Made by a program: the position numbers and the translations under genes. The notes under the pieces are model-generated. The model was not told the DNA's origin. It made no database searches and worked only from the letters and a program-made list of their open reading frames with translations. A stretch of 64,000 bases of DNA from Polynucleobacter necessarius (GTDB lineage: Bacteria; Pseudomonadota; Gammaproteobacteria; Burkholderiales; Burkholderiaceae). Positions 1 to 64,000 of this stretch are shown piece after piece (the first letter of the stretch is position 1; the number at the start of each line of letters is the position of its first letter). The DNA lies in contig NZ_LT606951.1 of assembly GCF_900095205.1 (NCBI RefSeq), positions 744,001-808,000 on the forward strand, written 5' to 3'.

Positions 1-35
1 TTGCCAGTTTTAAAACTTTTTTGCTTTTAAAGACC

Positions 36-881
36 CTAGTGTTTACCAGTAATTGCAAGGGTTCTTTGAGCTAATAAAACAACCGGTCGATCAATCATGC
101 GGCCATCTAATTTCACGGCGCCACCTTTAGAAGCTTTATCAGCTTCAATGACCCGGCTTTGCCCAAGCCAACTCCTCATCAGTCGGGGTGAATGCTTTGC
201 TGACAATCTTGACTTGTTTTGGATGAATGCAGAGTTTGCCACCAAATCCCATGCGCTTTGCACGTTCAGCATCATCGGTAATTCGTTCAATGTCTTCGGT
301 AGAAGGTGTAACCCCGTCAATAGGAGGGGCAATCTGGGCAAGGCGGGATGCTAAAATAATTTGATAACGCGCTGTTTGTAATTCTGTTTCTTGGCGATCG
401 CACACCAAGCCTAGATCGGCTTGTAGATCTAGATTTCCTAAAGCAAGGTGAATGACCTGATTGGAGTTTGCAATTTCTTTTAATTTATCTAAACCAACTG
501 CGGTTTCAATCATGGGGATGATAGCTGTATTAGGCAGGATCATCGTTGCGCCATTAATTTGATCTAAAGACTCACTTTTTGGAATGAGCAAGCAAGGCTA
601 CTTGAAGCTCTTGCGCGAGTATTAAATCGGCTGCATAAAACTTACTACCAGGTGAGTTGGTTGATGGTTAAGCGCTTCTTTTGTTCAGGGGTAAAGCTAG
701 GCCATGCATTGCGAATGGCGCTTCGTGCAAGGTCTTTGTCTTCTTCAGCTACCGCATCCTCTAGGTCTAAGACAACCCCACTAACACCGCTATCCAAGGC
801 TTTGATAAAGCGTTTCGGGCGGGTACCTGGTACGAATAAAAAGTTGGTGCTAAAGCCAAGAGGTGGATCGAGTGGGTTCAT
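36..881 (-). pseudogene. Broken CitE-like / HpcH-HpaI family lyase
   Basis: Remnant of a citrate lyase beta-like (CitE) protein, a family that cleaves or forms C-C bonds of CoA thioesters such as malyl-CoA or citramalyl-CoA. The ATG at 881 starts a readable N-terminus with the family motif FVPGTRPKRF and the acidic stretch VVLDLEDAV. The frame is lost near 650. The middle part (about 591-340) and the C-terminal part with GFGGKLCIHPKQV and a normal end lie in other frames, so at least two frameshifts are present. It is the last gene of a minus-strand cluster after the MmgE/PrpD and MaoC-like genes, which suggests a lost branched dicarboxylic acid pathway. The exact substrate cannot be told from sequence. 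Confidence 0.85.
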
Positions 882-894
882 ATAAGTGGGTAAA

Positions 895-2283
895 TTATGA
901 AGATGGGAGTAAGAAGCCTATCTTGGCTTGTTTACGAATATTCCACAAGAGTTCAATGGCGTTACTCATCTCTTCTGGGGTGGCGCCACCGCTGTAGGCA
1001 GCAAGACGTATTGCTTTATCGGTAATTTCTGCACGTGAAAGGGTATTGCCAGGATCGCCCTTAGGCTCATCTACTCGACCATCCAGAATTTGCCCATTGT
1101 TCTCAAACGTACTCGAACCTTTCCGATCCAGCGTTGAGGATGGGCGCTATCGACTTCGGGATCTAGCTCCATAGGTGACTCGATCACGGAAGTTGCAAAT
1201 TTCAACATCATGAAAATGGGCATCAAATTCTTGTAAGCCTGCAAATTGGTAATGCGCTACTAAGGCCAACACCGTTCCCATCGAGAATTTAGATTGATGC
1301 ACGGTTGCTGGATCTGTGGCTGGACCCAAAACATCAATTGCTCCTTGGTGAACCATAGTCTCTACTTTTGCAATATCGCTCGGTGCAAGAGCTGGTTTGC
1401 CAATATCACTTGCAATAAGGCATCGGCTGCTGGGTGGGTATGTCTGCACGATGCGTAATATTTAAAGCTAGTTTCTGCTAAGGCCCAGCGAGCGCCTAGG
1501 CGATCAACCAGTTTGCTTGGATCGCTATCGCTAGTCATGCCTGCTGCCAAGCCTTGCTTGCCTTCCAAAATGTGCTGTGCGCCAGTAAATCCAGAGTGTT
1601 TGCAAGATAGGGCGGACATTAAGCCAGTAGACGCCGCATGGGCGGTATGCAGTTGCTTAGAATCAGCAGCATCTCGAAGAAACTCCCAAAGACCCGCTGA
1701 TTGAGTGCCAGCAGAACCAAAGGCATTTAGCATTTGCTCGGGGTTTAGTTTGAGAAGACGGCCAACAGCAGCAGCGGCCGCTAAAGTGCCAGCAGTACCA
1801 GTAGTGTGAAATACCTTGTAGTGAGAACGACCTAAAAATTTACCAACACGGATGTCCACTTCATATCCTGCAACCGCAGCTACCAAGAGATCTTCTCCAG
1901 AAGCGCCAATCGCCTGAGCACAAGATAGTGCCGGAGGAAAGACAACTGTTGCGGGATGAAAAACTGAACCATTGTGAACGTCATCTTGTTCAGCAACATG
2001 TGATGCCGCGGCATTAGCCATTGCCGCCAAAAAAGGGCTAGAGGTTTTGCGAGAAATCAAAACTTCAGATGGGCCAGCATGAGTCGAAGCAAAAGCCACC
2101 CATATTGAAAGCGAATTGCGTAATTAACTCTACAGGACGCGATCCTTTTCCGGCGATTGCTGAACCAAACCAATCAACCAACAAATCTTCTGCTCGGTTC
2201 ATCACTTCGCCTGGAATATCTTCAACACAAAGATTGGCGGCAAAGCTTGCTAGTTCGCGAGAGAGGTGTGGTGAAGTTATCAT
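895..2283 (-). pseudogene. Broken MmgE/PrpD family protein
   Basis: Remnant of a MmgE/PrpD protein, the family of 2-methylcitrate dehydratase and itaconate-type decarboxylases (usually about 450 residues). The N-terminus (SRELASFAANL, then DWFGSAIAGKGSRPVE) starts with the ATG at 2283. The frame shifts near 2100, then gives a long central stretch including AGYEVDIRVGKFLG and the HTHPAADALLQ region. It shifts again near 1410, and the C-terminus down to the TAA at 895 is in pieces. At least three frame breaks are visible. It lies 8 bp after the MaoC-like pseudogene and 13 bp before the CitE-like one, so the three formed one operon. The original substrate is unknown. Confidence 0.85.
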
Positions 2284-2291
2284 CTTTATCT

Positions 2292-3177
2292 TTAGGCTAG
2301 TATGGCAGTAGCCTGCATAGTGAGCCAGCCTTCATGGTCTTGAGCCCAAATAGAAATGGTTTTTCCAGTAGGATCCACTTCAAGGTCGGGTTTAGCGCTG
2401 ACTTTGAAGACATTGATATCAAAGGTGGGGCGAATCGCGCGGAACTCAAACCGTTTGAGCCTGCACCCAGGAATGCTTTGACGCACAAGATCCACTAACA
2501 AAGTAGCAATTAACGGCCCATGCACAATTAAACCTGGGTAGGCCCTCCACTTCAGTCACATATTTGCGATCGTAGTGAATGCGGTGCCCATTGAACGTCA
2601 GGGCTGAATAGCGAAATAGCAGAACATCATCCGGCGTGATGGTTTTGCTCCACTGTGCATCAGTAGGAGCTGGAGTAGGGGCAACTGGCTTATCGTCAGG
2701 ACCAGGAGCATCTCGATACACGATGTCATGTTCTTCAATAATGGCAAGACCATTTTGGTTGGAGATCTGGTGATTGACTAAGACGAAAATCAAATCACCG
2801 GTGCGACCTGCTTTATGGGTAACCGATTCAATTGTAGAAACACGCTCTATCTCATCACCCACCGCGAGGGGGTTTAGCCATTCAATTTTGCTACCTGCCC
2901 ACATCCGACGTGGCAATGGAACAGGGGGTAGAAAGCCACCGCGTTTCGGATGACCATCAGGACCAATTTCAGATCCACGCGCATGCGGCAGAAAGTAAGG
3001 CCAATGCCAAAGCTCTGGCAAGAAAGTTCCAATGCTGGGCGCTGGATCATCGCGATCCAAAGTTGCCGATAGAGCGCGCACAGGAGCTGCTGTCACAGTG
3101 TCTTGAAGAGACTCGGTTTTACCAAGCCATTCTTGAAGGTGGGTAATGGTTTGAGGTTCGATTCGCATAAGTTCCAT
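2292..3177 (-). pseudogene. Broken MaoC-like / mesaconyl-CoA hydratase-type dehydratase
   Basis: Remnant of a hot-dog-fold dehydratase resembling the FAS1-like and mesaconyl-C4-CoA hydratase group (about 290 residues). The N-terminal 210 residues read cleanly from ATG 3177, including LPRRMWAGSKIEW and the hydratase-like NGHRIHYDRKYV. Near 2535-2545 one frameshift moves the C-terminal half (HGPLIATLLVDLVRQ to the end at 2292) into another frame. Only this single lesion was found, so inactivation may be recent. It is first in the operon with the MmgE/PrpD and CitE-like pseudogenes, consistent with a lost C5-dicarboxylate CoA pathway. That pathway is an inference from family membership. Confidence 0.8.
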
Positions 3178-3199
3178 TATGCCAATCTTGCTAGAAAAC

Positions 3200-4527
3200 T
3201 CACCCTAGCAAAACAGAGGTGTAATAAAAGAGAAGTCCAGCTAAAGCAGACCCACCAATGACGGAAAGGACGCTTTTTGAAACTTAAACAAAGCTAAACC
3301 CGCCAAGGTGCAGATCAGAATCGATATCCAAGAGACTGACCCCCGAAACCCTTTGGCAAAAACACATGGTAAGCAAAAAATAAGCCCAGATTAGCAATCA
3401 CACCTACTACAGCAGTGGTAATAGCGGTGAGGAGGGGGCGGTAAAACTCAGTTTGCCATGGGTCGATTCAATCAAGGGGCCGCCAACTAAGATAAAAAAG
3501 AAGGACGGCAAGAAAGTAAACCAAGTGGCGACGCAGGCACCAATCACACCAAACCAAAACGGATTGCTGTTGCCAATCAAGTGTTGAATATGCTCCGCCA
3601 GATATCCAACAAAGGCCACCACCATAATGAGCGGTCCAGGAGTAGTTTCTCCAAGGGCCAAGCCATCAATCATTTGATTGGCGCTCAGCCAATGGAAGTG
3701 CTCAACAGCACCCTGATAAACATAAGGTAGTACCGCATAGGCGCCACCAAAGGTGAGCAGCGCGGCCTTCGTAAAGAACCAAGCCAGTCGAGGGTAGAGC
3801 GTCTTCCAGCCAAAAATGGTGATCAACCCGCCTATTGGCAATAGCCAGTAAAAGAGAGCGACGAGGCTATGACGAATAGTTTTTTGATAAGAAAATTTTG
3901 CGTGCTCAGGGGTTGGGGTGTGATCATCAATGATGGCATCGCCATATTTTTTCACTTCATTGGATCCATGTCCGCTACCTTGCTGAAAATTTTCTGGATA
4001 ACGCTTACCACCCCAGTAGCCAATCGCAGCAGCGATAGCTACGATGATCGAAAAGGCTACGTTCAAGATGAAGATCGCTAGAAATGATCCCAGTGCAATC
4101 CATTGAAGCGCTTGATTGTGAATGGTGCGTTTTTCAATGCGCACTGCAGCATGCAACACGATTGCAGTCACCGCAGGCTTGATGCCAAAAAAAATAGCGG
4201 CTATCCAGGGTACTTGTCCAAAGGTGAGATAAACCCAAGACAAACCTATCAAAATTAATAAAGAGGGCAGAACAAAAAGACTTCCAGCCAGAATGCCGCC
4301 CTAGCTACGATGCATGAGCCAGCCAATCTAGGCAACCAACTGTTGTGCTTCAGGCCCAGGTAATAGCATGCAATAGTTGAGGGCATGTAAAAGCGCCGCT
4401 CAGAAATCCAGCGACGCTTTTCAACTAACTCTTGGTGAAGAACGGCAATTTGTCCTGCAGGCCCACCAAAACTAATGAAGCCTAGCTTGGCCCAAAACTT
4501 TAAGGCCTCGCGTAGTGGAATACTCAA
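3200..4527 (-). pseudogene. chrA: Broken chromate transporter ChrA
   Basis: Remnant of a two-domain CHR-family chromate efflux permease. The first domain begins FWAKLGFISFGGPAGQIAVL, and the second begins FFTKAALLTFGGAYAVLPYV and contains LGETTPGPLIMVVAFVGY, both diagnostic of the family. The reading frame breaks near 4380 and 4300 in the first domain, and near 3410 and 3300 before the end at the TGA at 3200. The likely start is a TTG at 4527 whose last bases overlap the fabI stop codon (TTGA), so it was probably translationally coupled to fabI. Loss would remove chromate efflux. Confidence 0.88.
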
Positions 4528-5309
4528 ACCTCGTCCATTCCGCCAACTACTTGGCTAAAGCCGTTATCTACATAGATGATTTCAGCAGTAATACCATTTG
4601 CTAGGTCGGACAATAAAAATGCTGCAGTATTACCTACATCATCAATCGTGACGTTACGACGTAAGGGAGCAGTTTGTTCAACCGCCTCCAAAATCTTGCT
4701 AAAGCCTTTAATACCTGATGCCGCTAAAGTTTTGATGGGGCCAGCAGAAATTCCATTCGCACGCATCCCTTTAGGGCCTACTGAGCCTGCAAGGTAGCGT
4801 ACTGAGGCTTCTAAGGAAGCTTTTGCTAAACCCATCGTGTTGTAGTTGGGAACATTCTTCATTGAGCCCAAATAGGTCAGCGTCAGCAATGAGGATTTGT
4901 CACGCAACATTGGAAATGCTTCTTTAGCCATCGCTGGGAAGCTATACGCCGAGATGTCATGCGCTATTTTGAAGCCTTCACGTGAAAGACCTTCTAAAAA
5001 GTCTCCGGCAATTGCTTCGCGTGGGGCAAAACCAATAGCATGCACAAAACCATCAAATTGAGGCCAAGTTTTGGCTAAATCCTTAAAAAGCGCGCTGATT
5101 TGCTCGTCGCTACCCACATCACAGTCAAAAATCAGGTCAGTATTGAATTCTTTAGCAAAATCCACAATCCGATCTTTGAAGCGCTCGCCCACGTAGGTAA
5201 AGGCTAGTTCAGCCCCTTCACGGTGACAAGCCTTGGCAATCCCATATGCTATAGAGCGATTTGAGAGTAGGCCGGTAATAAGAATTTTTTTGCCAATAAG
5301 AAAGCCCAT
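4524..5309 (-). CDS. fabI: Enoyl-[acyl-carrier-protein] reductase (NADH) FabI
   Basis: Performs the last reduction of each fatty-acid elongation cycle, trans-2-enoyl-ACP to acyl-ACP with NADH, in the cytosol. The protein is 261 residues, the usual length. It shows the FabI-type glycine-rich cofactor site GLLSNRSIAYGIA (residues 13-25) and the catalytic set Tyr146, Tyr156 and Lys163 in YLGSMKNVPNYNTMGLAK, with spacing identical to the Escherichia coli enzyme. ATG 5309 is preceded by an AAAGGA ribosome-binding site. It is intact although the downstream chrA gene is dead. It is divergent from yejA with only 50 bp between, which must hold both promoters. Fatty-acid synthesis is expected to be retained even in host-restricted bacteria. 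Confidence 0.97.
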   Translation of the reverse strand: MGFLIGKKILITGLLSNRSIAYGIAKACHREGAELAFTYVGERFKDRIVDFAKEFNTDLIFDCDVGSDEQISALFKDLAKTWPQFDGFVHAIGFAPREAIAGDFLEGLSREGFKIAHDISAYSFPAMAKEAFPMLRDKSSLLTLTYLGSMKNVPNYNTMGLAKASLEASVRYLAGSVGPKGMRANGISAGPIKTLAASGIKGFSKILEAVEQTAPLRRNVTIDDVGNTAAFLLSDLANGITAEIIYVDNGFSQVVGGMDEV

Positions 5310-5359
5310 GTTGTGTCCTTTGCTTCAAATATGATTAGCTGTCTACAATTGTTGCATAT

Positions 5360-7228
5360 ATGCCTAGCTTAAAACCCATTCACCACATTGCCCATTTATT
5401 GATCCTAACTCTGCTGCTGGGGCTTGGAGTCAATGCAGCCCAGGCCGGCCAAGGTATAGCGCAATACGGAATGCCTAAGTATCCCGACGGATTTGCCCAT
5501 TTTGATTATGTGAATCCCAATGCTCCCAGGGGTGGAACCTTAGTTTTACCAAACCCAGGGCAAAGAACTAGCTTTGATAAATTCAATCCATTTACCCTCC
5601 GAGGAATTACCGCTCCAGGCATTGATCTCATGTTTGAATCTCTTGCAGAGGGAAGTGCGGATGAGGTTTCTAGTATTTATGGGCTATTGGCTGATGATAT
5701 TCAAGTAGCAAAAGATCGTAAGTCAGTGACATTTCGCATACGCCCTGAGGCTAAATTTTCAGATAGTAGCCCAGTGTTGGCGGCCGATGTTAAGTACAGC
5801 TTTGATACCTTAATGAGCGGGAAAGCGCATCCTCGTTATAAAACCACCTTCGCCGACATTAAAGAAGCTGTAGTTTTATCCGAAAGATCTATTCGCTTTG
5901 ACTTTAAAAATGACAATGCTGAGCTCCCGATATTGGCTGGAACGTTTCCTGTTTTCTCGCGTAATTGGGGTAAGAAGCCAGATGGATCCATGATCCCATT
6001 TGAGAAGCTTGCCTTTGAGCCTCCTATCGGTAGCGGTCCCTATTTAATTGAATCTTTTAAAGCGGGCAAATCAATTACCTATAAAAGAAATCCCCAGTAC
6101 TGGGCAGATCATCTTGGTAAGCCTTTAAACATTCGCGTTGGTTTTTATAACTTTGATCGTGTTCTATATAAGTTATATAGCGATTACGCTGTGAGACTAG
6201 AAGCCTTTAAGGCAGGGGAGTTTGATGCACTAGTTGAGTATCGTGCCAAGATCTGGGCGAAAGGATACGTCGGTTCAAAGTTTGACAAAGGAATTTTGCT
6301 AAAGAAAGCATTTTTAAATCACAACGGTGCTGGAATGCAGGGCTTTGCGATGAATGTGCGTCGATCGATCTTTAAAGATGTGCGAGTTCGCGAAGCATTG
6401 GGTTATGCGTTGGATTTTGAATGGCTTAATCGGCAAATATTTTTTGATCAGTACAGCCGTATCAATAGTTATTTCACAAACAGTGATTTAAGTGCAAACT
6501 TTGACGGGCCACGCAAGCCAACCGAGGCTGAATTGAAATTGCTTAAGCCTCTAAAGGCGAAATATCCACAGTGGGTCCCCGACGCTGTTTTTGGTCCAAT
6601 GCCTGCAGCACCCTCTACCACCCCTCCCGGTAGCCTACGTCAGAATTTAAAGAAAGCACGTGAACTGCTGATGCATGCTGGCTGGCAATATCGGGACGGA
6701 GCCTTACGTAATGAAAAAGGTGAGCCATTTCGGTTTGAGATTGTGGAAGATGGCGGATTCTTTCTGAGGGTGATTTCTGCTTATGTACGCAATTTAGAAA
6801 AATTGGGTGTGCACGTAGATATTCGGACGAGTGACTTTGCCCTGCATCAAAAGCGCATGAATGAATATGACTTTGATATGACTACGGTTCGTTTTCAGGA
6901 TTCTCAAAACCCAGGCAATGAACTCTGGGATCGATTTGGTAGTGAGGCTGCTAAAGAGAAAGGCTCAGACAATGCCATTGGCGTGCAATCTCCAGTGGTA
7001 GACGCCTTGATTGATGAGATAACGAAAGCACAAAATCGTGAACAGCTCAGAACTGCCACAAGAGCTCTGGATCGCGTTTTGTGGAATAGTTATTACGTGG
7101 TTCCTCAATGGTATAACCCAACGCATCGTGTCGCCTTCCGTCATGAGATGCGATATCCAGAGCCGCCCTTGTATTACTCTGCCGAGTTGTGGATCATGCA
7201 AAACTGGTGGAAAGAGGAGGCTAAATAA
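5360..7228 (+). CDS. yejA: Oligopeptide ABC transporter substrate-binding protein (YejA type)
   Basis: Periplasmic solute receptor of family 5 (DppA/OppA/YejA), delivering peptides to the YejBE-F importer. It has 622 residues, typical of YejA. A signal peptide covers about residues 1-29, with hydrophobic core LLILTLLLGLGVNAAQA. The mature N-terminus GIAQYGMPKYPDGFAHFDYV is characteristic of YejA proteins. The later conserved blocks (YSFDTLMSG, PIGSGPYLI, FAMNVRRSIFKDVRVREAL) follow in order and no disruption is visible. The stop overlaps the yejB start (TAATG), so the four genes form one operon. In enterobacteria Yej imports microcin C and peptides; peptide uptake is the inferred role here. 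Confidence 0.93.
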   Translation: MPSLKPIHHIAHLLILTLLLGLGVNAAQAGQGIAQYGMPKYPDGFAHFDYVNPNAPRGGTLVLPNPGQRTSFDKFNPFTLRGITAPGIDLMFESLAEGSADEVSSIYGLLADDIQVAKDRKSVTFRIRPEAKFSDSSPVLAADVKYSFDTLMSGKAHPRYKTTFADIKEAVVLSERSIRFDFKNDNAELPILAGTFPVFSRNWGKKPDGSMIPFEKLAFEPPIGSGPYLIESFKAGKSITYKRNPQYWADHLGKPLNIRVGFYNFDRVLYKLYSDYAVRLEAFKAGEFDALVEYRAKIWAKGYVGSKFDKGILLKKAFLNHNGAGMQGFAMNVRRSIFKDVRVREALGYALDFEWLNRQIFFDQYSRINSYFTNSDLSANFDGPRKPTEAELKLLKPLKAKYPQWVPDAVFGPMPAAPSTTPPGSLRQNLKKARELLMHAGWQYRDGALRNEKGEPFRFEIVEDGGFFLRVISAYVRNLEKLGVHVDIRTSDFALHQKRMNEYDFDMTTVRFQDSQNPGNELWDRFGSEAAKEKGSDNAIGVQSPVVDALIDEITKAQNREQLRTATRALDRVLWNSYYVVPQWYNPTHRVAFRHEMRYPEPPLYYSAELWIMQNWWKEEAK

Positions 7229-8304
7229 TGCAAGGTCAAATGCGCGCTTATATTTTTAAACGGTTGCTCTTAATGATTCCCACCATTATCGGAGTGCTTA
7301 CGCTCGCCTTTGCGGTTGTGCAATTTGTTCCGGGCGGGCCAGTAGAGCAAATGGTTCTTGAGCTCAAAGGGAAGGGTAATGCAGCCACTGGAGGGTCAGA
7401 GTCTTCTGGTGCGGGATCAACCTATCGTGGTCGTCAAGGTGTTGATGCGCAACGCTTAGAAGAGGTTAAAGCACTATATGGATTTGATAAGCCTCCACTG
7501 GAGCGCTATTTCATGATGTTGGGGCGTTTTGCACGTTTTGATCTGGGACAAAGTTACTACCAACATGAAAGTGTTTGGCGTTTAGTGGTTTCTAAGCTAC
7601 CTGTGTCAATCAGTATTGGTCTATGGACCTTCTTTATTACCTATTTAGTTTCCATTCCATTGGGGATTGCTAAAGCTGTTCGAGATGGCTCTCGTTTTGA
7701 TGCAATTACCAGCAGCATGATTTTGGTTGGCTATGCCATCCCTGGATTTGTATTGGGTGTCTTGTTGTTGGTAGTTTTTGGTGGCGGTAATTTTTTACAA
7801 ATATTTCCGCTACGAGGACTCACTTCGGACAACTGGAGCGATTTGAGTTTGATGGGTAAGGTGATGGATTATTTGTGGCATTTAGTCCTTCCGATTACAG
7901 CATCCGTTCTAGGTAGTTTTGCTGTGGTCACAATGCTTACCAAGAATTCTTTCTTAGAAGAGATTCGCAAGCAATATGTCTTGACTGCACGCGCAAAAGG
8001 ACTTACTGAGAAACAGATATTGTGGAAGCATGTTTTCCGCAATGCATTATTGCCGCTAGTGACTGGTTTTCCAGCAGCATTTATTGGCGCCTTCTTTACT
8101 GGCTCTTTGTTAATCGAAACGTTATTTTCTCTAGATGGCCTTGGCTTGCTCTCTTATGAGTCAGTGATGCGTCGTGACTATCCAGTAGTGTTCGGTACCC
8201 TATATTTATTTACCTTAATCGGCTTGTTTACGAAGTTAATTTCTGATCTTTGCTACGTCTATGTAGATCCACGCATTCAGTTTGGTGTGGGAGGCGGTTC
8301 ATGA
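7228..8304 (+). CDS. yejB: Peptide ABC transporter permease YejB
   Basis: Inner-membrane permease of the binding-protein-dependent family (DppB/OppB/YejB), 358 residues. The N-terminal transmembrane segment (about residues 8-30, LLLMIPTIIGVLTLAFAVVQ) precedes a periplasmic loop, then five further hydrophobic segments. The cytoplasmic EAA loop, which contacts the ATPase, is seen as YVLTARAKGLTEKQILWKHVFRNALLPL. The start overlaps the yejA stop by one base, and the end overlaps the yejE start in ATGA. The insertion GNAATGGSESSGAGS around residues 50-64 is a low-complexity Gly/Ser loop, a common feature of YejB. Intact. Confidence 0.94.
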   Translation: MQGQMRAYIFKRLLLMIPTIIGVLTLAFAVVQFVPGGPVEQMVLELKGKGNAATGGSESSGAGSTYRGRQGVDAQRLEEVKALYGFDKPPLERYFMMLGRFARFDLGQSYYQHESVWRLVVSKLPVSISIGLWTFFITYLVSIPLGIAKAVRDGSRFDAITSSMILVGYAIPGFVLGVLLLVVFGGGNFLQIFPLRGLTSDNWSDLSLMGKVMDYLWHLVLPITASVLGSFAVVTMLTKNSFLEEIRKQYVLTARAKGLTEKQILWKHVFRNALLPLVTGFPAAFIGAFFTGSLLIETLFSLDGLGLLSYESVMRRDYPVVFGTLYLFTLIGLFTKLISDLCYVYVDPRIQFGVGGGS

Positions 8305-9326
8305 ATCGCTGGCTGCGTTTTAAAAATAATCGCATGGGCTATGTCAGCCTATGGATCTTCGCTGTACTGTTCGGCCTATCGATGTGCGCCGAGTTGATTG
8401 CAAACGATAAGCCTTTGGTTGTTCGCTATGAAGGGCGCTTCTATTTCTCTATTGTGAAGAGTCAGCCTGAGACGGTTTTTGGTGGAGACTTTGCGACGCC
8501 TACAGATTTTTTAGATCCAGATATTCGCCAAAATATTACTAGCAATGGTAATTGGGCTATTTATCCGCCAATTCACTATAGCTATGAAACACTAAATTAC
8601 TTTTCTAAGGTGCCTAATCCTGCGCCACCCTCTTGGGAGAACTGGTTGGGCACGGATGATCGCGGGCGTGATGTCTTAGCGCGTCTCATTTACGGCTTTC
8701 GTTTATCGATTCTCTTTGGATTGGCGCTTACGATCGTGGGAGTAAGCGTAGGAATCATCACCGGATCTCTCATGGGCTTTTTTGGCGGCAAATTCGATTT
8801 GATCTCGCAACGCTTGATTGAGATCTGGTCGGCGATGCCAGAGTTGTATTTACTCATTATTTTTGCCTCCATCTTTAACCCTAGCGTTTCCCTCTTGATT
8901 ATCTTGTTGGCCGCTTTTGGTTGGATGGGTTTATCTGATTACGTTCGTGCGGAATTTTTCCGTAACCGCGCTCTCGAATATGTGCGTGCAGCAAGGGCGC
9001 TAGGATTGACCAATGTGCAAATCATGTGGCGTCACATTCTTCCCAATAGCTTGACTCCAGTAATTACCTTTTTGCCGTTTCGTATGAGTGCTGCGATTTT
9101 GTCTTTAACCAGCCTAGACTTTTTAGGCTTGGGTGTTCCTCCTGGAACACCGAGTTTGGGAGAGTTGCTTTCTCAGGGGAAAAGCAATCTTGATGCTTGG
9201 TGGATTTCGCTATCGACTTTCGTGGTCTTGGTCGCCACCTTGCTTTTGTTAACCTTTATGGGCGAAGCATTACGTAATGCATTTGACTCGCGCAAGGCTG
9301 GGTTGATGAGCGGGGGTCGACCATGA
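8301..9326 (+). CDS. yejE: Peptide ABC transporter permease YejE
   Basis: Second permease of the Yej importer, 341 residues from the ATG at 8301. This start is preferred over an upstream in-frame start at 8250 because it gives the usual DppC/YejE N-terminus (MNRWLRFKNNRMGYVSLWIF) and the four-base ATGA overlap with yejB. It shows the family motif NWLGTDDRGRDVLARLIYGF before the permease domain, and the EAA loop YVRAARALGLTNVQIMWRHI. It ends overlapping the yejF start. Intact. Confidence 0.94.
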   Translation: MNRWLRFKNNRMGYVSLWIFAVLFGLSMCAELIANDKPLVVRYEGRFYFSIVKSQPETVFGGDFATPTDFLDPDIRQNITSNGNWAIYPPIHYSYETLNYFSKVPNPAPPSWENWLGTDDRGRDVLARLIYGFRLSILFGLALTIVGVSVGIITGSLMGFFGGKFDLISQRLIEIWSAMPELYLLIIFASIFNPSVSLLIILLAAFGWMGLSDYVRAEFFRNRALEYVRAARALGLTNVQIMWRHILPNSLTPVITFLPFRMSAAILSLTSLDFLGLGVPPGTPSLGELLSQGKSNLDAWWISLSTFVVLVATLLLLTFMGEALRNAFDSRKAGLMSGGRP

Positions 9327-10960: not shown

Positions 10961-11098
10961 GGGTGCTTATTAAATAATGCGTTGTTGGTCTAAATTGGTG
11001 CATATGCCCTCATTTAATGCAAAATTAACTTTATAAACAAAGACTTATGAGTAAGCTGAATGCTTGGTAAATTAAGGGTTCTTTGTTAAACTGATTCG

Positions 11099-13615: not shown

Positions 13616-13621
13616 TAATTA

Positions 13622-15346: not shown

Positions 15347-15373
15347 TTTGTATCAGTTTTCTGCTAAATAGGC

Positions 15374-49576: not shown

Positions 49577-49590
49577 CTCAAGTCAGTTAT

Positions 49591-50856: not shown

Positions 50857-50858
50857 AA

Positions 50859-52227: not shown

Positions 52228-52241
52228 TTTGCATCTGCCTT

Positions 52242-53383: not shown

Positions 53384-53431
53384 ATTTATTTGGTGCTTGT
53401 ATTTTGTCTCTTATGGTTAATGTATGGTAAT

Positions 53432-54160
53432 TCACTTATTCAATAGATGGTAGAGCACCGGAATGGCTACCGCGCTTACAACGCCATTCATGCCCATTGC
53501 CAGACTGGCATAGGTTCCTGCTTCAGGATAAATGCTAAATGCGCGTGAAGTACCTATGCCATGAGCGCCGATTCCAATGGCAAAACCTCTTTGTCACCAA
53601 GCTTTCATTTTTAAGGCATTCAGAATAAAAGGCGCAAGGATGGCGCCTAATATGCCGGTGCCGACTGCAAAAATTGCAGCTAGTGTAGGTGACACGCCGA
53701 TGCGCTCAGCAATACCCATGGCTATCGGTGCCGTCACAGATTTTGGATACATCGCTCCAGTGATGCTCGCATCTGCACCTAGAAGGGTAGCAATACCTAC
53801 TGCACTAATAATCGATACGAGACCACCAGTACATAGTGAGGCTATCAGTGGAAGAGATCTGCCTTTTAGGCTGCTAAGACCTCGATAGATAGGGATTGCA
53901 AGAGACACTGTTGCCGACCCTAGAAGAAAGTGAATGAATTGAGCGCCTTCAAAATAGGTTGAATAAGGCATCTCAATCAACTGAATCGTGGTCGCAACAA
54001 TGAGAATCGCTATCGCTACAGGATTGGCTAATGGGTTTTGCCGAGTCGATTTATAGATGCTAAGGCCGATTTGATAGGCTGCAAGAGTAATGAATAGGGC
54101 AAATAGTGGGCTCCCAGAAAGATAGACCCAAATCTCAACAATCGAGTGCTTCTCACTCAT
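53432..54160 (-). pseudogene. LrgB/YohK-family protein killed by a single TGA codon
   Basis: Membrane protein of the LrgB/YohK family, associated with murein hydrolase control or small-molecule export. The sequence reads cleanly from ATG 54160 to ALKMKAW. There a TGA (53594-53596) replaces an expected Trp codon, and the same frame continues without further damage: QRGFAIGIGAHGIGTSRAFS to YHLLNK and TGA at 53432. The hydrophobic architecture is otherwise complete. A single nonsense change suggests late inactivation. It overlaps the partner lrgA-like gene by 8 bp. Confidence 0.85.
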
Positions 54161-54629: not shown

Positions 54630-55078
54630 ATGGCTGAGTTAAATGTCAATGGCAAAAAATACAAGGTGGATGTTGATCCAGAAACCCCATTACTTTGGGT
54701 AATCCGTGAACAAGTGGGTCTCACTGGAACTAAGTATGGCTATGGAGTCGGTCAGTGTGGTGCATGACTGTTCTATTGAACGGACAGGCTACGCGCAGCT
54801 GTGCATTGCCTGTATCCGCAGTGGCGGGTTAAAAAATCGAGACGATTGAAAGTCTCGAAAAAAGCGGTCAGCTCTCCAAAGTGCAAAAAGCTTGGGTTGA
54901 CAATCAAGTGCCTCAGTGTGGCTACTGTCAATCTGGGATGGTGATGGCCACTACAGCGTTACTGAGAAATAATCCGAAGTCTACCGATGCGCAAATTGAT
55001 GAATCCATCACCAATATTTGCCGTTGTGGCACTTTCCAACAAGTGCGCGTAGCGATTCATGCTGCTAGCAAGGCTTAA
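54630..55078 (+). pseudogene. Broken 2Fe-2S subunit of a molybdenum hydroxylase (IorA type)
   Basis: Remnant of the small iron-sulfur subunit of a xanthine-oxidase-family enzyme such as isoquinoline 1-oxidoreductase. ATG 54630 starts [20 protein letters not shown]. In the first cluster motif GQCGACTVLL one base is missing inside the second Cys codon (near 54766), which shifts the frame and destroys a ligand. An in-frame TAA follows at 54830-54832. The second cluster, QCGYCQSGM and NICRCGT, remains readable. It lies just before the large-subunit pseudogene. Confidence 0.9.
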
Positions 55079-55088
55079 GAAGATAACG

Positions 55089-57238
55089 ATGACTATGAAA
55101 ACAAATACCTCCCGCCGTCATTTTGTTATTGACTCTAGTGCTATTGCTACTGGTTTGGCTATTGGCTTTGACCTCGCTCTAATTATCTACAGCAAACGCT
55201 GCAATCGGTACTGGTACTACTGCCATGACGCCACTAGCGACCCCTGAGATTGGAGTATGGGTTGTTGTAAAGCCGAATGATGATGTGATCATCCGTGTCG
55301 TCCGCTCAGAAATGGGGCAGGGAACCATTACCGGTTTAGCGCAATTGGTTGCCGAAGAATCGCAGTGCGATTGGAAAAAGTTTTTTATGACTATCCGTCT
55401 CCTGCTGAGAACTTAAGGCGTAGCAAGGTATGGGGTAGCTACTCCACCGGCGGTAGTCGCGGTATTCGGACATCTGAGTTATATGTTCGTAAGGGCGACG
55501 CTTCCGCACGTATGATGCTCATTCAAGCTGCTGCAAATCAATGGAATGTTCCTGCGTCAGAGTGTGTTGCTGAAAATAGTGTGATTACCCACACGCTTAC
55601 CGGTAAAAAAACTACCTTCGGTAAAGTATCGGTAGCTGCATCACAGCTAGAGGTGCCCAAAGATCCGCCATTAAAAGATCCAAAAGAATGGAAGTTGATT
55701 GGCAAATCAGTTGATCGTATTGACGGAGTAGCTGACAAAGTAACGGGTAGACAAGTTTATGCCATTGACTTGAAGATGCCAGGCATGTTGGTCGCTAATA
55801 TTAAGCAGTCTCCTGTATTTGGCGGTAAAGTGTCGAGCTACGATGCCACTAAAGCATTGAGTATGAAAGGCGTTAAGAAGGTGGTTCCAGTTGGGAATTC
55901 TGCTGGAGCGGTGTAGTTGCAGAAACCTTTTGGCAAGCAAAAACTGCCATGGACCAAGTCAGCATCACTTGGGATGATGGCGCGAACGCTAACGTCTCAA
56001 GTGCTTCAATTAAAAAGATGTTAGAAGAAGGTTTAAATGCGAACGATACCTTTGTTCACAATACCAATGGTGATGTAAAGGCTGCTTTTTCTTCTGCATC
56101 TAAAACGATTGAAGCTACTTATGAAGCTTGGGTGCCAACACAAGATGGCGAAGCGTCTTTGGCCGCAGTGATTGAAGCGTCAGGACTTCCTGCGGATAAG
56201 TGCAATGTCTATAAAGTTAATCTTGGTGGTGGCTTTGGGCATCGTGGCGCTTTCCAGGATTACACAACACAGGTAGTCAATATTGCTAAGCAGATGCCTG
56301 GGACTCCGATCAAGTTAATTTGGACTCGTGAAGAAGGTATGACGCAGGGTCGTTACCATCCAGTCATGATGTGCAAGATGAGCGCTGCTATTGACGACAA
56401 GAAAAATGTTACTGGCGTCAATATGCGTCTATCTGGTCAGTCCATTTTGGCTGCAGTTCGTCCAGCAGTTGTGGCGTCATTTAAGGGCAAAGATCCGTTG
56501 GCATTTCAGGGTGTTGACCCAACTGGTGAGCACGGTATTACTTATAGTTTCCCGAATTTAAATATTGATCACGCCATGCGCAATACTCATGTGCCTCCCG
56601 GTTTTTGGCGCGGTGTGAATGTAAACCAAAATGCAATCTTTGTTGAAACGTTCATGGATGAATTGGCTGAGGCTACTGGTGTAGATGCGGGGGAGTTTCG
56701 TCGCAAGCATATGGCAGAGTATCCGCGAGCCATTGCGGTGTTGAATGCAGTGGCCGATGGTATCGGTTGGACCAAGCCGGCTGCATCTGGTGTATATCGT
56801 GGAGTAGCGCAAATACGCTCTTTTGGAGGCTACGTTGCCGCGGCTTGCGAGATTTCGGTTAAAAATGGCAATGAAGTGAAGATTCATCGTATTGTTGCTG
56901 CAACTGATCCTGGTTATGTTGTAAATCCTGCGCAAGTTGCACGCCAAGTTTCCGGTTCTTTTGTTTACGGTCTATCAGCTTTATTCGAAGAGGAAATTAC
57001 GATTGAAAATGGCGCCGTAGTTCAGAAGAACTTTGACACCTTTAACTCTATTCGTCTTTATCAGATGCCTCCAGTGGAAACCATCATCGTTCAAGGTGGC
57101 GGTAAAGATTGGGGTGGGGTTGGAGAGCCCAACGATTGCGGGGTAGCTGCACCAGCTGTTTTGAATGCATTCTATCGAGCAACAAGCAAGCGTTTGCGCA
57201 CGGTACCCCTGAAAAATAGCGGCATCAAGTTGGTATAA
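55089..57238 (+). pseudogene. Broken molybdopterin-binding large subunit (IorB type)
   Basis: Remnant of a large subunit of about 720 residues that binds the molybdenum-molybdopterin cofactor. The N-terminus has an Arg-rich signal (SRRHFVIDSSAIATGLAIGFD), then frame breaks near 55195, 55370 and 55910. The final 429 residues (55949-57238) read openly and include GGGFGHRGAFQDYTT and ending GGKDWGGVGEPNDCGVAAPA. It forms a pair with the 2Fe-2S subunit. Loss of both halves removes the enzyme; the substrate is not known. Confidence 0.88.
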
Positions 57239-57266
57239 GAACTGGCTTTCCGCATAATTTCTACCA

Positions 57267-57712
57267 ATGAGAAAGAAGGTTGCTGTAGCATTTTTATTGC
57301 TGGCAATCTTCTCGCTTAATGCTGGAAATGCTCAGGTAATTCAGGGGGTTCAATTGTTGAATCCCTCTCTGCTGAACCAGGTAATCCAACTCGCGGCAGG
57401 GCAATTGTCGTTAGTCGTCAGACTGGATTATGTTTGTTGTGTCATAGCGGACCATTTCCAGAAGAGCGATTTCAGGGTAATTTAGCGCGTGAATTAAAAG
57501 CCAGCGTTGCTCGCTTAGATGCGCCTCAATTGAGGGCGCGCATTGTGAACGCAGCACACTTTAACTCTCAAACTATCATGCCAGCCTATTACCAAACCAG
57601 CCATTTAAATCGGGTTGCACCCAAATTTGTAGGGCAAACTATATTAAGCGGCCAAGAGATTGAAGATGTAATAGCTTTCTTATTGACTTTGAATGCTCAA
57701 AATGGCGATTGA
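57267..57712 (+). pseudogene. soxX: Broken SoxX cytochrome c
   Basis: Remnant of the diheme/monoheme cytochrome partner of SoxA in thiosulfate oxidation (periplasm). The signal peptide reads from ATG 57267. Two frame breaks (near 57350 and 57430) surround the heme-binding CLLCHSGPFPEERF. The C-terminal part, RARIVNAAHFNSQTIMPAYY and VGQTILSGQEIEDVIAFLL, ends at 57712. First gene of a soxX-Y-Z-A order. Confidence 0.85.
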
Positions 57713-57719
57713 AAAAGAG

Positions 57720-58197
57720 ATGAAAAAAATGATTCAAACTCACCGTCGAGACTGGTTTAAACAGGTCCGTGGGCTTGGGTTTTTGGCTTTAGGTTTTTGC
57801 TTTAACCCAATCGCAGCCTTTGCTAAAAAAGAAGACGCCGTAGAAGCAATCAAAAAAATTACTGGCGGAGCGAAAGTGCAAGAGGGTCGCGTTAATCTGG
57901 TTATTCCACCGCCAGTTGAGAACGGCAATTTAGTGGTGTTGAAAGTGAGTGTGGATAGTCCAATGACTGCGAATGATTATGTCAAGGCGATTCATGTCAT
58001 CGCAGAGGGCAATCCCTTGCCTAATATTTTTTACCGCTTACCTGACTCCACGATCTGGCACAGCAAATATCACTACTCGAGTTCGCTTGGCTGATAGTCA
58101 GATAGTATGGGCCATTGCTCAAATGAGTAATGGTAGTTTTTGGCAGGGCTCAGCAGAAACCTTGGTGACCCTTTCAGCCTGTACGGAGTTAGTATGA
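57720..58197 (+). pseudogene. soxY: Broken SoxY sulfur carrier protein
   Basis: Remnant of SoxY, the periplasmic carrier that holds sulfur intermediates on a C-terminal Cys. Twin-arginine-type signal (THRRDWFKQVRGLGFLALGF) from ATG 57720. The central part (LVVLKVSVDSPMTANDYVKAI) is open. A frameshift near 58035 moves the end (TTRVRLADSQIVWAIAQM, then ETLVTLSACTELV) to another frame, and the C-terminal sequence is not the Gly-Gly-Cys-Gly-Gly motif expected in active SoxY. It overlaps the soxZ start by 4 bp (ATGA). Confidence 0.85.
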
Positions 58198-58523
58198 GTA
58201 AAGCTTCTCGTACTTCCATCACCATGCCTGCAACGGCAAAAAAAGATTCCATTATCGAGATTCGAGCTATCGCACAGCATGATATGGACTCGGGCTTTCG
58301 CTATACAGAAGATGGCAAGCTTATTCCGCGTGACATCATTCGAGCCTTTACCTGTAACTACAACTCTGTAGAAGTATTTAAAGCTGATTTATTCTCAGGC
58401 ATTGGAGCCAACCCTTTAATCATTTTCAATGCTGTGGCAGTGGAGTCCGGCACGCTTGGGTTTAGGTGGGTTGGGGATAATGGCTATGAAGCAGTCAACC
58501 AGGCTAGTATTTCTGTTTCGTGA
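58194..58523 (+). CDS. soxZ: SoxZ, thiosulfate oxidation carrier subunit (open frame in a dead operon)
   Basis: SoxZ pairs with SoxY to form the carrier of the periplasmic thiosulfate oxidation cycle. It has 109 residues from ATG 58194, normal size, all in one frame. It matches the family: SIIEIRAIAQHDMDSGFRYTEDGKLIPRDII, shown here by the pieces MDSGFRYTEDGKLIPR and NPLIIFNAVAVESG. The partner SoxY and both cytochrome subunits are broken, so it has no evident function now. It is probably a small target not yet hit, rather than a gene under selection. Confidence 0.85.
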   Translation: MSKASRTSITMPATAKKDSIIEIRAIAQHDMDSGFRYTEDGKLIPRDIIRAFTCNYNSVEVFKADLFSGIGANPLIIFNAVAVESGTLGFRWVGDNGYEAVNQASISVS

Positions 58524-59286
58524 AAAGACGAGCCTTCCTATATCTAGGAACTGCCTATTTAATCTGTAGCCTCTCCATTGCGGTAGCTGGTCCTACCCAG
58601 CAATCAAGCTATGAGTTGATGTCTGCTGAGAATAAAGCGATGCAAGACGATCCATTATTAAATCCCGCGATGTTTTGGGTTGGTGATGGGGAAGCGCTGT
58701 GGCAGCAAAAGTTGGGGCCACAAAATAAATCCTGCAGCACCTGTCATGCTGATGCCAAAAAATCGATGCGTGGTGTAGCCACGCAATTCCCAAAGGTGAT
58801 AAACGGTAAGTTGCAGACTCTAGAAGGTCAAATTAATCAATGTCGCGTCAATGCCCAATCTGCTCCTGCCTTAGCCTATGAGAGCAAGGATCTTTTGGCG
58901 CTAACAAGTTTTATTGCCTTTCAGTCAAAAGGCTTACCTATCGCTATCACTCAAAGCTCAGTAAATGGACCATGCTTGCAAAAAGACCGACGTATATTTA
59001 ATGAGCGCATGGGACAACTCAATTTATCTTGCGCACAATGTCATGAAGATAGAGCGGGCTTAAAGTTAGGAGGCAGCCTTATCCTTAAGGCCATCCTAAT
59101 GCCTATCCAATTTATCGCCTGGAGTGGCAAACACTGGGAGCATTACAAAGGCGGTTGCGTAATTGTATGAGCGGAGTCAGAGCACAACAATTTGAATATG
59201 GTTCGCCAGAGATGGCTCAGCTGGAGCTCTTTCTGATGTGGCGCGCTAGAGGTCTACCCTTGGAGTCCCCAGGGGTTAGACCTTAA
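58520..59286 (+). pseudogene. soxA: SoxA cytochrome c, frameshifted near the end
   Basis: SoxA is the diheme c-type cytochrome that couples thiosulfate to SoxY. A signal peptide and both heme motifs are present: CSTCH near residue 73 and CAQCH near residue 172, with NQCR between. A frameshift near 59075 ends the present frame at 59170. The expected C-terminus (GHPNAYPIYRLEWQTLGALQ, then RRLRNCMSGVRAQ with its heme-related Cys) continues in another frame to the TAA at 59286. It starts 4 bp before the soxZ stop. Confidence 0.87.
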
Positions 59287-59303: not shown

Positions 59304-60158
59304 TTAATCCGAGAAGACTACCGAAGTTGCTCCGTTGATAAGGACGCGATCATGCAGGTAATAACGTAAGGCTCTAGAAAGTACAGTTCGCTCTAAGTCG
59401 CGACCCTTACGTACTAAATCATCTGGTGTGTCGCCATGGGTTACGCGAGTAACGTCTTGCGCAATAATTGGACCCTCATCTAAATCGCTAGTAACAAAGT
59501 GGGCTGTAGCACCAATAAGTTTGATGCCGCGAGAGCATGAGCCTGATGATATGGTTTTGCGCCTTTAAAGCTAGGCAAAAATGAGTGGCGTACGTTGACG
59601 CATCGCCCAGAAAGCTTGGAAGATAAGTCATCAGACAAAATTTGCATGTAGCGTGCCAAGATCACCATATCCACCTTGGATTCAGCGATGATCTCTAGCA
59701 ATCTAGCCTCTTGAGCGGGTTTGGTATCAGGGGTAACAGGTAAATGATAAAAAGGAATATCGGCAAAGTCGATGCTGGCATAGACGTCACGAGGATGATT
59801 GGAGACAATTCCACAAATAATCATGGGTAGCTCGCCAATGCGCCAACGATAAAGAAGATCTACCAAGCAATGATCTAATTTAGAGGCCATGATTAATACT
59901 CGTTTGAGATCCTTTACTGCGCGTAACTCCCAGGTGCGATCAAAGCGTTTGGCAATCTCTAGAAAACCAGCCCGCAAGGTATTGGCCTGAGCAGGTCAGC
60001 TGAAGCTGACGCGCATAAAAACGTTTAGAGGCCTTGTCATCAAATTGCTGTGCCTCTTCAATATCACCGCCAGCTTCATAGATGTACGTGGAAACGGTAG
60101 CAACAATGCCTGGTTTGTTTGGACAAGTGAGAGTGAGGTAGTAATTTTCCGCGGACAT
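59304..60158 (-). pseudogene. purU: Broken formyltetrahydrofolate deformylase PurU
   Basis: Remnant of PurU, which hydrolyses 10-formyltetrahydrofolate to formate and balances one-carbon units with purine synthesis. The N-terminal ACT domain reads from ATG 60158 (YYLTLTCPNKPGIVATVSTYIYEAGG). Breaks near 59980 and 59530 separate it from the catalytic domain ([20 protein letters not shown]) and from the C-terminus ([20 protein letters not shown]), which ends with the TAA at 59304. Confidence 0.88.
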
Positions 60159-60237
60159 TTAAATCACCAAAATATTGCTTACAAGTGTCAATTTTAGACT
60201 GTTATGGCCTTAAAGGGCATAAAGCTTTTGATGGTTA

Positions 60238-61096: not shown

Positions 61097-63559
61097 CTAC
61101 TTATTGATTAATTCAAGCTGCCGATTAACCTTTTCAGGCTTCATTTTTAAAGGAAGATATTCATTATTAGCCCAAAGAACATTCATATTGCGATAAAACT
61201 TACTTTGTATCCAGCCGGATTGGCCTGTTTGATAGATAAAGAAAGAATTTTCCAGGTCGGAAAGATCGTATACGGTATGTAAGCTCGGGGCTTGTAAGGT
61301 CTTGTACGGGTTCTTAGATTGCAAAAGTTCTAATCTGCCTACGTTGATAGAAAAGCTGTCGCTCGGAAGGGGGTCTTAATATTAAATAAGCCGCCAATGA
61401 GGGGAACTTTGCTAAAGGGGCGGTGTTCCAAAATGGCGATATGCGCCTTGCCCCAAGCCCAAGTGTTTGGGTCATTTCCATATTCTTTACTGAGGTAGTC
61501 CAGGGCTTTATCAAGGGCTTTGTTTGACGAGTCCTGACACGATTCCACGGCTTGCGTTTTAGGATCATCGCACCAAGGGCTATTCGGATTTTTTATCTGG
61601 AGCAAGAGTGGGGCTCGGTAATTACGTACGCCATAATTATCGGAAAATAAATAACCCAATCTTGAAAAAAGATTGCGCGTTAATTGATCAGCCCATGCAT
61701 TGAAAATAAGTGCACCAGAACTAGATACTTTCATGTCTCCCTCAAAGTTTTTCATCATCTCCATGGCCTGAGATGCTAGAGGATGAGTTGATTGACTCGC
61801 CTTGAATAGCTCCAATAGAGGCGTTGAGGCGAGGGATAAAGTATCGCCTTGCATTTTTTTCATATCATCGACGGAGTGTATATTTTTTGCCTTGATGAGC
61901 TCTACTATACGGTCGTAACGAGCAGGTAAGTCCCAGGCTCCCGTCAGGGGGTTAGGATCATTTGCTGCGATGATTTTTTGATTTGCAGTTGCCAACCAGC
62001 CTTGCTCAGGATTGTTGCTCGACGGTAGCTGTTCAAAAGGCACGTAGCCATTCCAGTCGTATTGCCTATCCCAGCCAGGTGTTGGAGCTACCCCATATAA
62101 GCCCTGATGCAAGATTCTTTTGGGGGCTACACCTGCAGCTTGAAAAGCAATGTTGCCATCCATATCTGCCATCACCACATTTTGCATGGGCGCGTAATTT
62201 TTTCGAATCGCCTATTTAAATTCAGTCAGGTCTTCCGAGCGATTAATCTCTAATAGACCAGCAACAGATTGATTCTCTATGTCTAGTGCGGTCTAACGCA
62301 AAGCTAGCGCATACCGATCGGTATCTATAGCTCGCTTGGCTCGTGCATAAGAATCTGAAATGACTGGACCATGATGCGTTTTTTTACCAAAAAAGTAAAT
62401 GATGGCGAACCTTTGATGTCAATGATTTCTTGTCGTACCTTAAAGGGCAGGGGGCCATCTGGCCCTCTGTGCATCCCGGGATTTTTTGCATCGATTTGTT
62501 CTATGTATAAATCCTGAACATCGGGTCCGGTATTGGCAAAGCTCCAGGCAAATTTATCTGTTCTACCCAACACTACTGCTGGAATTCCAGGAAGCGTTCC
62601 GCCCATTGCATTTAAATCTGGCGCCTCTAGATGGGCGAAGTACCAAATGGCAGGCACAGAAAGTCCTAAATGGGGATCATTCGCTAGTAAAGGCTTCCCA
62701 GTGGTAGTGAGTTTGCCGCTGAGAGCCCAATTATTCGATCCGATGCCATTATTACCTCCCATTTGCATCAGTTTACCTAGTTCAGTAGCCGGCAAGTTTT
62801 GTGGTTTGCCTTCTACAGGCTTGGGTGAAGAAGGGAAGACGCTCATCTCTCGATACATTTTTGCAAAATCTACATTGCTGACTGGCTCATCTGTGCCATA
62901 AGGTGGATACATCTCCCAGACTTGCTTTGTGGTGAGAAACTTGGATAACTCAAGTCTTTGCAATTCTCTTTGCCAATTGCCTCCAAGGTCATAAGCCATC
63001 ATGAGCATCCAGGCGACGCTATCGGTCGGTGACCAGTGCCCAAGGTTTAGAGCCAGTTAAAAAATATTCAACCGGCAAAGCCCATCCTAATTGTGAATTA
63101 CCAGCATTTACCCCATCAGCATAAGCTTGCAGTAGGCGTTTAGCCGAAACTGGATAGCGATCGAATTGACGTTCTTCAGCGGCGCGTTTAATGCCAAGCG
63201 TGCGTACAAACGGATCAATCTTGACTGTGTCATTGCCTAGGATTTCAGAAAGTCGTCCGCTAGCAATGCGGCGATTCATTTTCATTTGCCAAGAACGCTC
63301 GGTAGCATGAAGATAGCCCAAGGCAAAGTATGCATCTGCCTAACTTTTTGCTTTGATATGGGGAATGTCGGTCTCGTCAAATGTGATGACGACTGATTCA
63401 CCTAAACTTTTAATTATTCGCTTGCCAGAAATATTGGATTGGGCGAAATACATGTAGGTAAGGCCTAACGCTATGGCTGCCAAGATACTCAGTAAAAATA
63501 CCCAAAAGCAGACCCTCCAATAGCTTGCTTACCCCGGTTCGATTTCTTGGCGTTTTCAT
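61097..63559 (-). pseudogene. Broken penicillin acylase family protein
   Basis: Remnant of a penicillin amidase-type Ntn hydrolase (about 800 residues, acylated amine cleavage, periplasm or cytosol). The start is at ATG 63559 with a hydrophobic leader in a shifted frame. An in-frame TAG at 63340-63342 replaces a Glu codon in AKS-E-ADAYFALGYLHATERSWQ. Frame breaks lie near 63015 and 62350, and two more in-frame TAG codons occur between 62200 and 62300. The Ser nucleophile motif NNGIGSNNWALSG is still readable, as are LANDPHLGLSVPAIWY and the C-terminus to 61097. Confidence 0.88.
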
Positions 63560-63695
63560 CAGAATATTTTAGTTGCTTTAGGGGGACAAGCCTTGGGCGG
63601 TAGGGTGGGGAGGGCTCTAGGGGTGTATGGGGTGCTTGCGTGCTAAAATTTCGCTTGTCTTGATTTATTTAGCACGGCTTTATTTGTTTGTGCGA

Positions 63696-63784
63696 GCCCG
63701 AGTGGTGAAATCGGTAGACACAGCAGATTTAAAATCTGCCGACTCAAAAAAGTCGTGCCGGTTCGATTCCGGCCTCGGGCACCA
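63696..63784 (+). tRNA. tRNA-Leu (anticodon TAA)
   Basis: Acceptor GCCCGAG pairs with CTCGGGC. The anticodon stem GCAGA/TCTGC has loop TTTAAAA (anticodon TAA). The long variable arm GACTC...GTC is typical of tRNA-Leu, the T arm is CCGGTTCGATTCCGG, and CCA is encoded at the 3' end. It reads UUA and, by wobble, UUG leucine codons. Confidence 0.95.
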
Positions 63785-63883
63785 TTCTTATTCCCTTATT
63801 TCGCGCTTGCCGAATAATTCGGGTCCCTCTATAGGGATACAACATATGGCGTTTAAACCACTTTCGTTGTATAAAATAGAACA

Positions 63884-64000
63884 ATGCATGTAGAGACCTA
63901 TCGCTGGACTGAATCAAAGGGTGGGATAGTCACCTATTCACCGACCCCAGCGTCAACTTGGTTTTTGTTTGTGCTGAGCACCCCTTTTTTCATGATCCCC
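63884..64000 (+). CDS. Partial hypothetical protein at the window end
   Basis: ATG 63884 opens a frame (MHVETYRWTESKGGIVTYSP, then a hydrophobic stretch STWFLFVLSTPFFMIP) that continues beyond 64000. It is likely the start of a small membrane protein. No ribosome-binding site of quality is seen and the family was not recognised. Confidence 0.45.
   Translation, partial: MHVETYRWTESKGGIVTYSPTPASTWFLFVLSTPFFMIP

Follow-up and report, generated by a model that had tools for sequence, protein, structure and literature searches.

The window analysed here is a 64,000-nucleotide stretch (G000:C1:744001-808000) of a Polynucleobacter genome, G000, which consists of a single contig of 1,934,415 bp with an estimated completeness of 99.92%. 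The window contains a block of undamaged core genes and many genes disrupted by frameshifts and nonsense codons. Specifically, the broken genes are dispensable ones for uptake, degradation, redox reactions and accessory enzymes, whereas the genes for translation, fabI and one peptide importer remain intact. The assignment to Polynucleobacter, which a sequence-only reading of the window had based on protein resemblance, is borne out. The best named matches of the window's truB are Polynucleobacter strains, and in a tree of nusA, infB, rbfA and typA the window adjoins the genome G002 with support of 1.00, apart from the other decaying genomes of the genus.

The core block (12866-23407, plus strand) comprises, by family matches, scpB, rluB, rimP, nusA, infB, rbfA, truB and typA, none of which carries a lesion. 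A plasmid search yielded nothing beyond short matches to typA. A second intact segment (4524-11737) holds fabI on the minus strand, a Yej-type peptide ATP-binding cassette (ABC) transporter (binding protein, two permeases and ATPase) and an endopeptidase-family hydrolase gene. Four broken genes precede this segment on the minus strand (36-4527: a CitE/RipC-like lyase, MmgE/PrpD, a FAS1-type dehydratase and a chromate efflux transporter). A broken patatin-like gene of the RssA family (11776-12707, minus), also broken in the decaying genomes G017 and G202, separates it from the core block. Downstream of the core block, Tex (23500-25854, plus), a TctC receptor gene (25943-26937, plus), three genes on the minus strand (27008-33970: transglutaminase-like, ATP-grasp/Alpha-E and transglutaminase/DUF2126) and an RluA-family pseudouridine synthase gene (34471-35379, plus) are all broken. 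They are followed by an open frame of 544 aa with a glutamate synthase domain (35383-37017, minus), which is aligned in the stretches of G007, G004 and G024 and not in those of G002 and G013, and by a DUF1501 gene with one frameshift (38568-39780, plus). DusA (39825-40898, plus) is effectively intact, with a frame change at its last residues only, and is intact in four other decaying genomes.

In the remaining third of the window, an intact PIF1-like helicase gene (41893-43227, plus) lies between a broken FGE-sulfatase-domain gene (41098-41889, plus) and a broken gamma-glutamyltransferase gene (43229-44815, minus). Near position 44,940 the window lacks about 7.4 kb that G002 and G007 contain, and alignment places the junction of this deletion at 44934-44951. 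Next come the broken remnant of an oligopeptide ABC transporter (44930-47419, plus; a permease fragment, OppD-like and OppF-like genes) and an intact LysE-type translocator gene (47408-48034, minus). Four further genes on the minus strand are broken (48061-53389: MlrC-like, allantoate amidohydrolase family, AptA-like aminotransferase and ArgE/DapE deacylase), and an LrgB-like gene (53432-54160, minus) contains a nonsense codon. Xanthine-dehydrogenase-type genes and a gene for a SoxA/TsdA-type cytochrome c occupy 54630-59286 (plus); of these six, only 58140-58523 is neither broken nor altered in frame. Formyltetrahydrofolate deformylase (PurU; 59304-60170, minus) and a penicillin amidase-family gene (61097-63559, minus) are also broken.

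We compared the window with syntenic 72-kb regions from five genomes of the same genus (G002, G007, G004, G024 and G013). The nearest is G002 (2,172,647 bp), with 84% nucleotide identity across 59 kb. G007 was matched to the cultured strain AP-Kaivos-20-H2 and G013 to cultured P. yangtzensis MWH-JaK3; G002, G004 and G024 are probably free-living, judging from their intact genes. Alignment of the 47 G002 genes with a window counterpart, together with up to four further orthologues each (54.3 kb), shows 27 of the 47 genes to be broken, with 83 net frameshifts and 24 nonsense codons among them. With a gene list made from G002 only, 29 of 50 are broken. The earlier estimate of roughly 33 broken genes was thus of the right size and slightly high. 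The frame 63643-63889, counted as broken in the G002-only list, overlaps a tRNA-Leu gene (63696-63784) and is probably a spurious open reading frame; that list also includes DusA, with its change at the last residues. In the same pipeline the four control genomes show far fewer lesions, mostly a single event per gene: 3 frameshifts and 6 stops in 9 of 45 genes for G007, 1 and 4 in 5 of 40 for G004, 2 and 5 in 6 of 36 for G024, and 1 and 6 in 5 of 37 for G013. We could not verify as such the single lost start codon listed by the sequence-only reading. In 8 of the 47 window genes, the position that starts the G002 frame holds a codon other than ATG, GTG or TTG. However, G002 gene starts were assigned mechanically, two of the eight have a close in-frame start (11099 and 37153), and some look like alignment effects.

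The same state extends beyond the window. In a 544-kb sample of G000 (genome positions 504001-1048000, window included), a protein-level match was available for 491 G002 genes, of which 453 were aligned and 404 kept (at least 0.76 identity, 80% length). Of these, 199 are broken and together contain 488 frameshifts and 140 nonsense codons. The other 205 are intact, whereas lesions scattered at random in proportion to gene length would leave 114 ± 8 untouched. Many broken genes carry several lesions, up to 14 per gene, and most remain 0.78-0.88 identical to G002, near the values of intact genes.

Four other decaying genomes were available for comparison: G017, G067, G068 and PPGSP2 (LT606947; G069 or L034, read as G202), for which identity cuts of 0.70 or 0.74 were used. 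The losses of G000 tend to coincide with theirs. Of 49 genes that are intact in at least two of these genomes and broken in none, 44 are also intact in G000. Of 88 that at least one of them has broken or shortened, G000 has 25 intact and 63 broken (odds ratio 22, p = 1.4e-12). G068, the least decayed, is the weakest case, with 11 of 53 genes broken compared with 2/34 to 4/51 in controls, and with 5 of 18 broken relative to its near relative 80A-SIGWE (control L029, 0/16). Without G068 the overlap persists: 45 of 48 genes are intact in the first class, and 23 of 86 intact and 63 broken in the second (odds ratio 41). G067 (1,703,354 bp) and, less clearly, G068 (1,907,709 bp), examined at loci L215-L234, thus resemble additional cases of decay in Polynucleobacter. 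A search for Tex across the genus, in the 124 genomes with a completeness of at least 97%, gave near full-length matches without stops in 82 and fragmented matches in five, namely G000, G017, G067, G068 and G069, with no other fragmented genome among the matches listed. The core block is not untouchable in such lineages, since truB lies in pieces in the 1.55-Mb genome G017 (G017:C1:513184-513651) and the reading frame of scpB is altered in both G017 and G202. In the four-gene tree, G017 and G067 each form a separate branch; G068, PPGSP2 and 80A-SIGWE group together, with support of 0.11 for the order among them. This placement agrees with the separate origins of Polynucleobacter endosymbionts, accompanied by an increase in pseudogenes, that are described in the portion of a published study cited here (PMC11253213).

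The most probable explanation, to which we give a probability of about 0.8, is that G000 is a Polynucleobacter genome of the PnecC type in early and recent reductive decay, most likely belonging to an endosymbiont that depends obligately on a ciliate host such as Euplotes. We infer the host restriction from the many broken genes that G000 has in common with a group containing PPGSP2, which bears the name P. necessarius. The switch to a host would have let selection on dispensable genes lapse and, with MutS and MutL missing, indels of 1-2 bp would have gone unrepaired and caused most of the inactivation. G000 resembles the P. necessarius endosymbionts of Euplotes (STIR1 and PPGSP2; STIR1 was not identified among the genomes compared) in genus, small chromosome, many pseudogenes and retained core, and overlapping genes are broken in PPGSP2 and G000. 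It differs from PPGSP2 and the other decaying genomes in its position on another branch beside G002, in having more frameshifts per nonsense codon and in its bias toward insertions.

A free-living Polynucleobacter that loses genes for reasons of niche, with no host involved, is an unlikely source of this pattern. Such a history would fit the intact genes of the nearest relative G002, and gene loss unaccompanied by decay is frequent in the genus, as illustrated by the 37 of 124 genomes with only weak Tex matches among those listed. However, half of the comparable genes in G000 are broken, unlike in the four controls, and the pattern is common to the set that contains PPGSP2.

Errors of sequencing or assembly are very improbable as the source of the lesions. 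Decay was judged from assembled sequence, and some types of long-read error are insertion-rich. Error is blind to gene function, however, and the core block (8 genes, 10.3 kb) has 0 lesions against 15.1 expected at the sample-wide rate (P ~3e-7). The longest lesion-free run spans 16.7 kb of coding sequence, compared with a 99.9th percentile of 7.8 kb under random placement. The damage is not confined to homopolymers, as runs of at least 4 contain just 45 of the 318 single-base indels, and a 7.4-kb deletion and many nonsense codons accompany the indels. Finally, much the same genes are broken in four other genomes, and this overlap leads us to reject sequencing error. The view that the decay is real and selective and spares a spotless scpB-typA block is therefore upheld, and confinement of the lesions to homopolymers, named beforehand as an outcome that would speak against it, is not observed.

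The inactivation appears recent. Ratios of nonsynonymous to synonymous divergence (dN/dS) were calculated per branch by a three-point NG86 method with four outgroups and bootstrap intervals for 11 of twelve rows. On the window branch, broken genes have dN/dS of 0.061-0.092 over the four outgroups (0.073, 0.058-0.129, for 25 genes with outgroup G007), compared with 0.036-0.050 for the same genes on the G002 branch. Intact genes have 0.039-0.044 on the window branch and 0.024-0.028 on the G002 branch. Because the ratio in broken genes is 0.06-0.09 and not near 1, the inactivation counts as recent rather than advanced. If the genes evolved neutrally once inactivated, these values would place inactivation in the last ~1.5-3.6% of the branch, with neutral divergence of ~1%; the count of nonsense codons points to 1-2%. 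Coding G+C content is 46.0% in G000 and 45.5% in G002; the absence of a shift toward A+T fits recent decay. Among derived single changes, 20 frameshifted genes have a missense excess of 63 (23-105) against 71 frameshifts. The missense rise relative to the G002 branch is 1.66-fold (1.20-2.62) in frameshifted genes, no larger than the 1.94-fold rise (1.37-2.87) in 19 intact genes. Thus, selection looks relaxed genome-wide, and the lesions are younger than the branch.

Old, advanced decay with dN/dS near 1 would account for the several lesions in many genes, but it is hardly credible given the low ratio, which is no higher in genes with at least three lesions than in other broken genes, the missing A+T shift and the near-intact identity of most broken genes to G002. 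Continued protein production from the broken genes by frameshifting or stop read-through would fit their purifying-type dN/dS, but it is very improbable, as the duplication contexts are varied with no clear motif, several lesions per gene (larger deletions included) occur, and the losses match those of other decaying genomes. Of the sequence-only reading, then, early genome reduction survives, its host dependence is retained as a probable interpretation, and its description of the decay as advanced, along with its expectation of dN/dS near 1 in pseudogenes, does not.

Three points weigh against recent decay in an endosymbiont. First, the low dN/dS could reflect survivorship, older dead genes having been deleted. 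Second, neutrality since inactivation rests more on the lesions than on missense changes, whose excess is small and matched by the rise in intact genes. Third, G000, at 1.93 Mb, is smaller than G002 (2.17 Mb) and yet exceeds the 1.7-1.8 Mb quoted for endosymbiont genomes in the cited part of PMC11253213; other genomes of the genus that show no sign of decay here also measure 1.7-1.8 Mb.

The small indels that the sequence-only reading had listed among the lesions are mainly of 1-2 bp, and their spectrum is not typical, contrary to that reading's description of the decay as typical of a host-restricted Polynucleobacter. In broken genes of the 544-kb sample, isolated indels comprise 189 of +1, 94 of +2, 129 of -1 and 20 of -2, so that insertions outnumber deletions by 283 to 149 (p = 1e-10). 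A second aligner gave 277:152, and bootstrapping over genes gave a ratio of 1.82 (1.52-2.20). Within the window, at sites where all references agree round the indel, the counts are 28, 21, 20 and 5, respectively. Tandem copies account for 158 of the 189 +1 insertions and 74 of the 94 +2 insertions, compared with 59% and 24.5% by simulation. At 67 of the 94 +2 events the adjoining unit is present in a single copy, and no clear sequence motif was found at the duplications. The rate of single-base indels climbs with run length, which indicates that slippage acts too, and long runs favour deletion. In total, bases lost from broken genes of the sample (1199) exceed bases gained (622), a net shrinkage. 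In intact genes of the sample, +3 and -3 differences from G002 number 16 and 4, with direction unpolarised.

The other decaying genomes do not share one direction. G017 is deletion-biased, with 15 insertions and 38 deletions (p = 0.002; p = 3e-7 against G000), and remains so at a stricter identity cut (6:19, p = 0.015). G067 is even (20:18), and G202 (12:7) and G068 (6:3) have too few indels to judge a bias; in G202, 6 of 8 +2 insertions are not tandem copies. Frameshifts and nonsense codons number 526 and 158 in G000, compared with 119 and 78 pooled over the four other decaying genomes (p = 1e-5). Relative to nonsense codons, G000 has 3.4-fold more +1 duplications, 4.4-fold more +2 duplications, 2-fold more -1 events and no more -2 events than these four, although they were compared at 0.79-0.81 identity to G002 rather than 0.84, which may affect the comparison of spectra. 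The insertion excess points to a lineage-specific mutational bias beyond homopolymer slippage. The decay of symbiotic Polynucleobacter is of an already published kind; to our knowledge, the new element is the insertion-rich spectrum, in a genome in which mutS and mutL were not found. No insertion-biased spectrum in symbiotic Polynucleobacter was found in literature judged by title and the start of the abstract, and we make no claim to a first report.

Genes for the mismatch repair proteins MutS and MutL were not found in G000, G002, G017 or G202 by a search that gave matches in control genomes (G067 and G068 lay outside it), and the cited part of a published survey reports both absent in all 20 PnecC genomes tested (PMC5644125). 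Their absence would raise indels in general. As the sole cause of the insertion bias it was rejected, since neither was found in deletion-biased G017. Loss of DNA polymerase I or of DnaQ proofreading was likewise rejected, with PolA open in 5/5 and the DnaQ gene open in 7/7 genomes searched, as was end joining by Ku, which had no match in 5/5 genomes. A Y-family polymerase domain is encoded by a short frame in G000 (G000:C1:1294430-1294870, L202), is partial or split in G017 and G202 (loci L203-L205), and occurs in long frames in G002 and G024. This may reflect parallel loss of a translesion polymerase in G000, G017 and G202; such a defect, common to deletion-biased G017, was discarded as the cause of the difference between insertion and deletion.

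In G000 a single gene matched type IA topoisomerases (G000:C1:46739-48601, L208). Its product is TopB-like, and the gene is open in 8/8 genomes. Alone among the eight, the G000 enzyme has Ser where E. coli TopB has Gly, and three residues present in the other seven are missing from it. The Ser position is N-terminal to a TYPR stretch, which we take to be the site of the catalytic Tyr. This substitution is a lead to the origin of the duplications, not evidence of cause. In E. coli, the topA mutant R168C makes tandem duplications independent of existing repeats and R35P makes short deletions, according to the cited part of PMC6954433. By comparison, the duplication signature of G000 resembles R168C and the deletion signature of G017 resembles R35P, whereas the duplications it describes in galK are of 2-19 bp and those of G000 mostly of 1-2 bp. 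The G000 enzyme, moreover, is TopB-like.

Tentatively, we suggest that an indel mutator writing 1-2 bp tandem duplications at non-repetitive sites, without mismatch repair, may drive the first wave of gene death in G000 in place of deletion, and that Polynucleobacter symbionts may then decay by differing signatures, duplications in G000 and deletions in G017. A duplication-type indel mutator is plausible but unproven, with an altered type IA topoisomerase among its candidate causes.

The recent insect symbionts SOPE and Sodalis offer a parallel. In the part of PMC3914690 cited here, their nascent symbiosis is marked by pseudogenes arising through frameshifts and stops, as in G000. Insertion sequence elements take part in inactivation in SOPE by the same account; none occurs among the annotated genes of G000, for which no dedicated search for such elements was made. 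The hosts also differ, as that of G000 would be a ciliate.

Freshly dead genes may hold many lesions while their dN/dS stays near that of living genes, which corrects a common expectation. Gene decay in bacteria is usually called deletion-biased, and at least two decaying lineages of one genus differ here in the direction of small indels. Several decaying lineages can be compared at the same genes, and three, searched for MutS and MutL, lack both by that search. Polynucleobacter therefore allows us to ask whether early genome reduction takes its pace and manner from the mutational machinery of a new symbiont as well as from relaxed selection.

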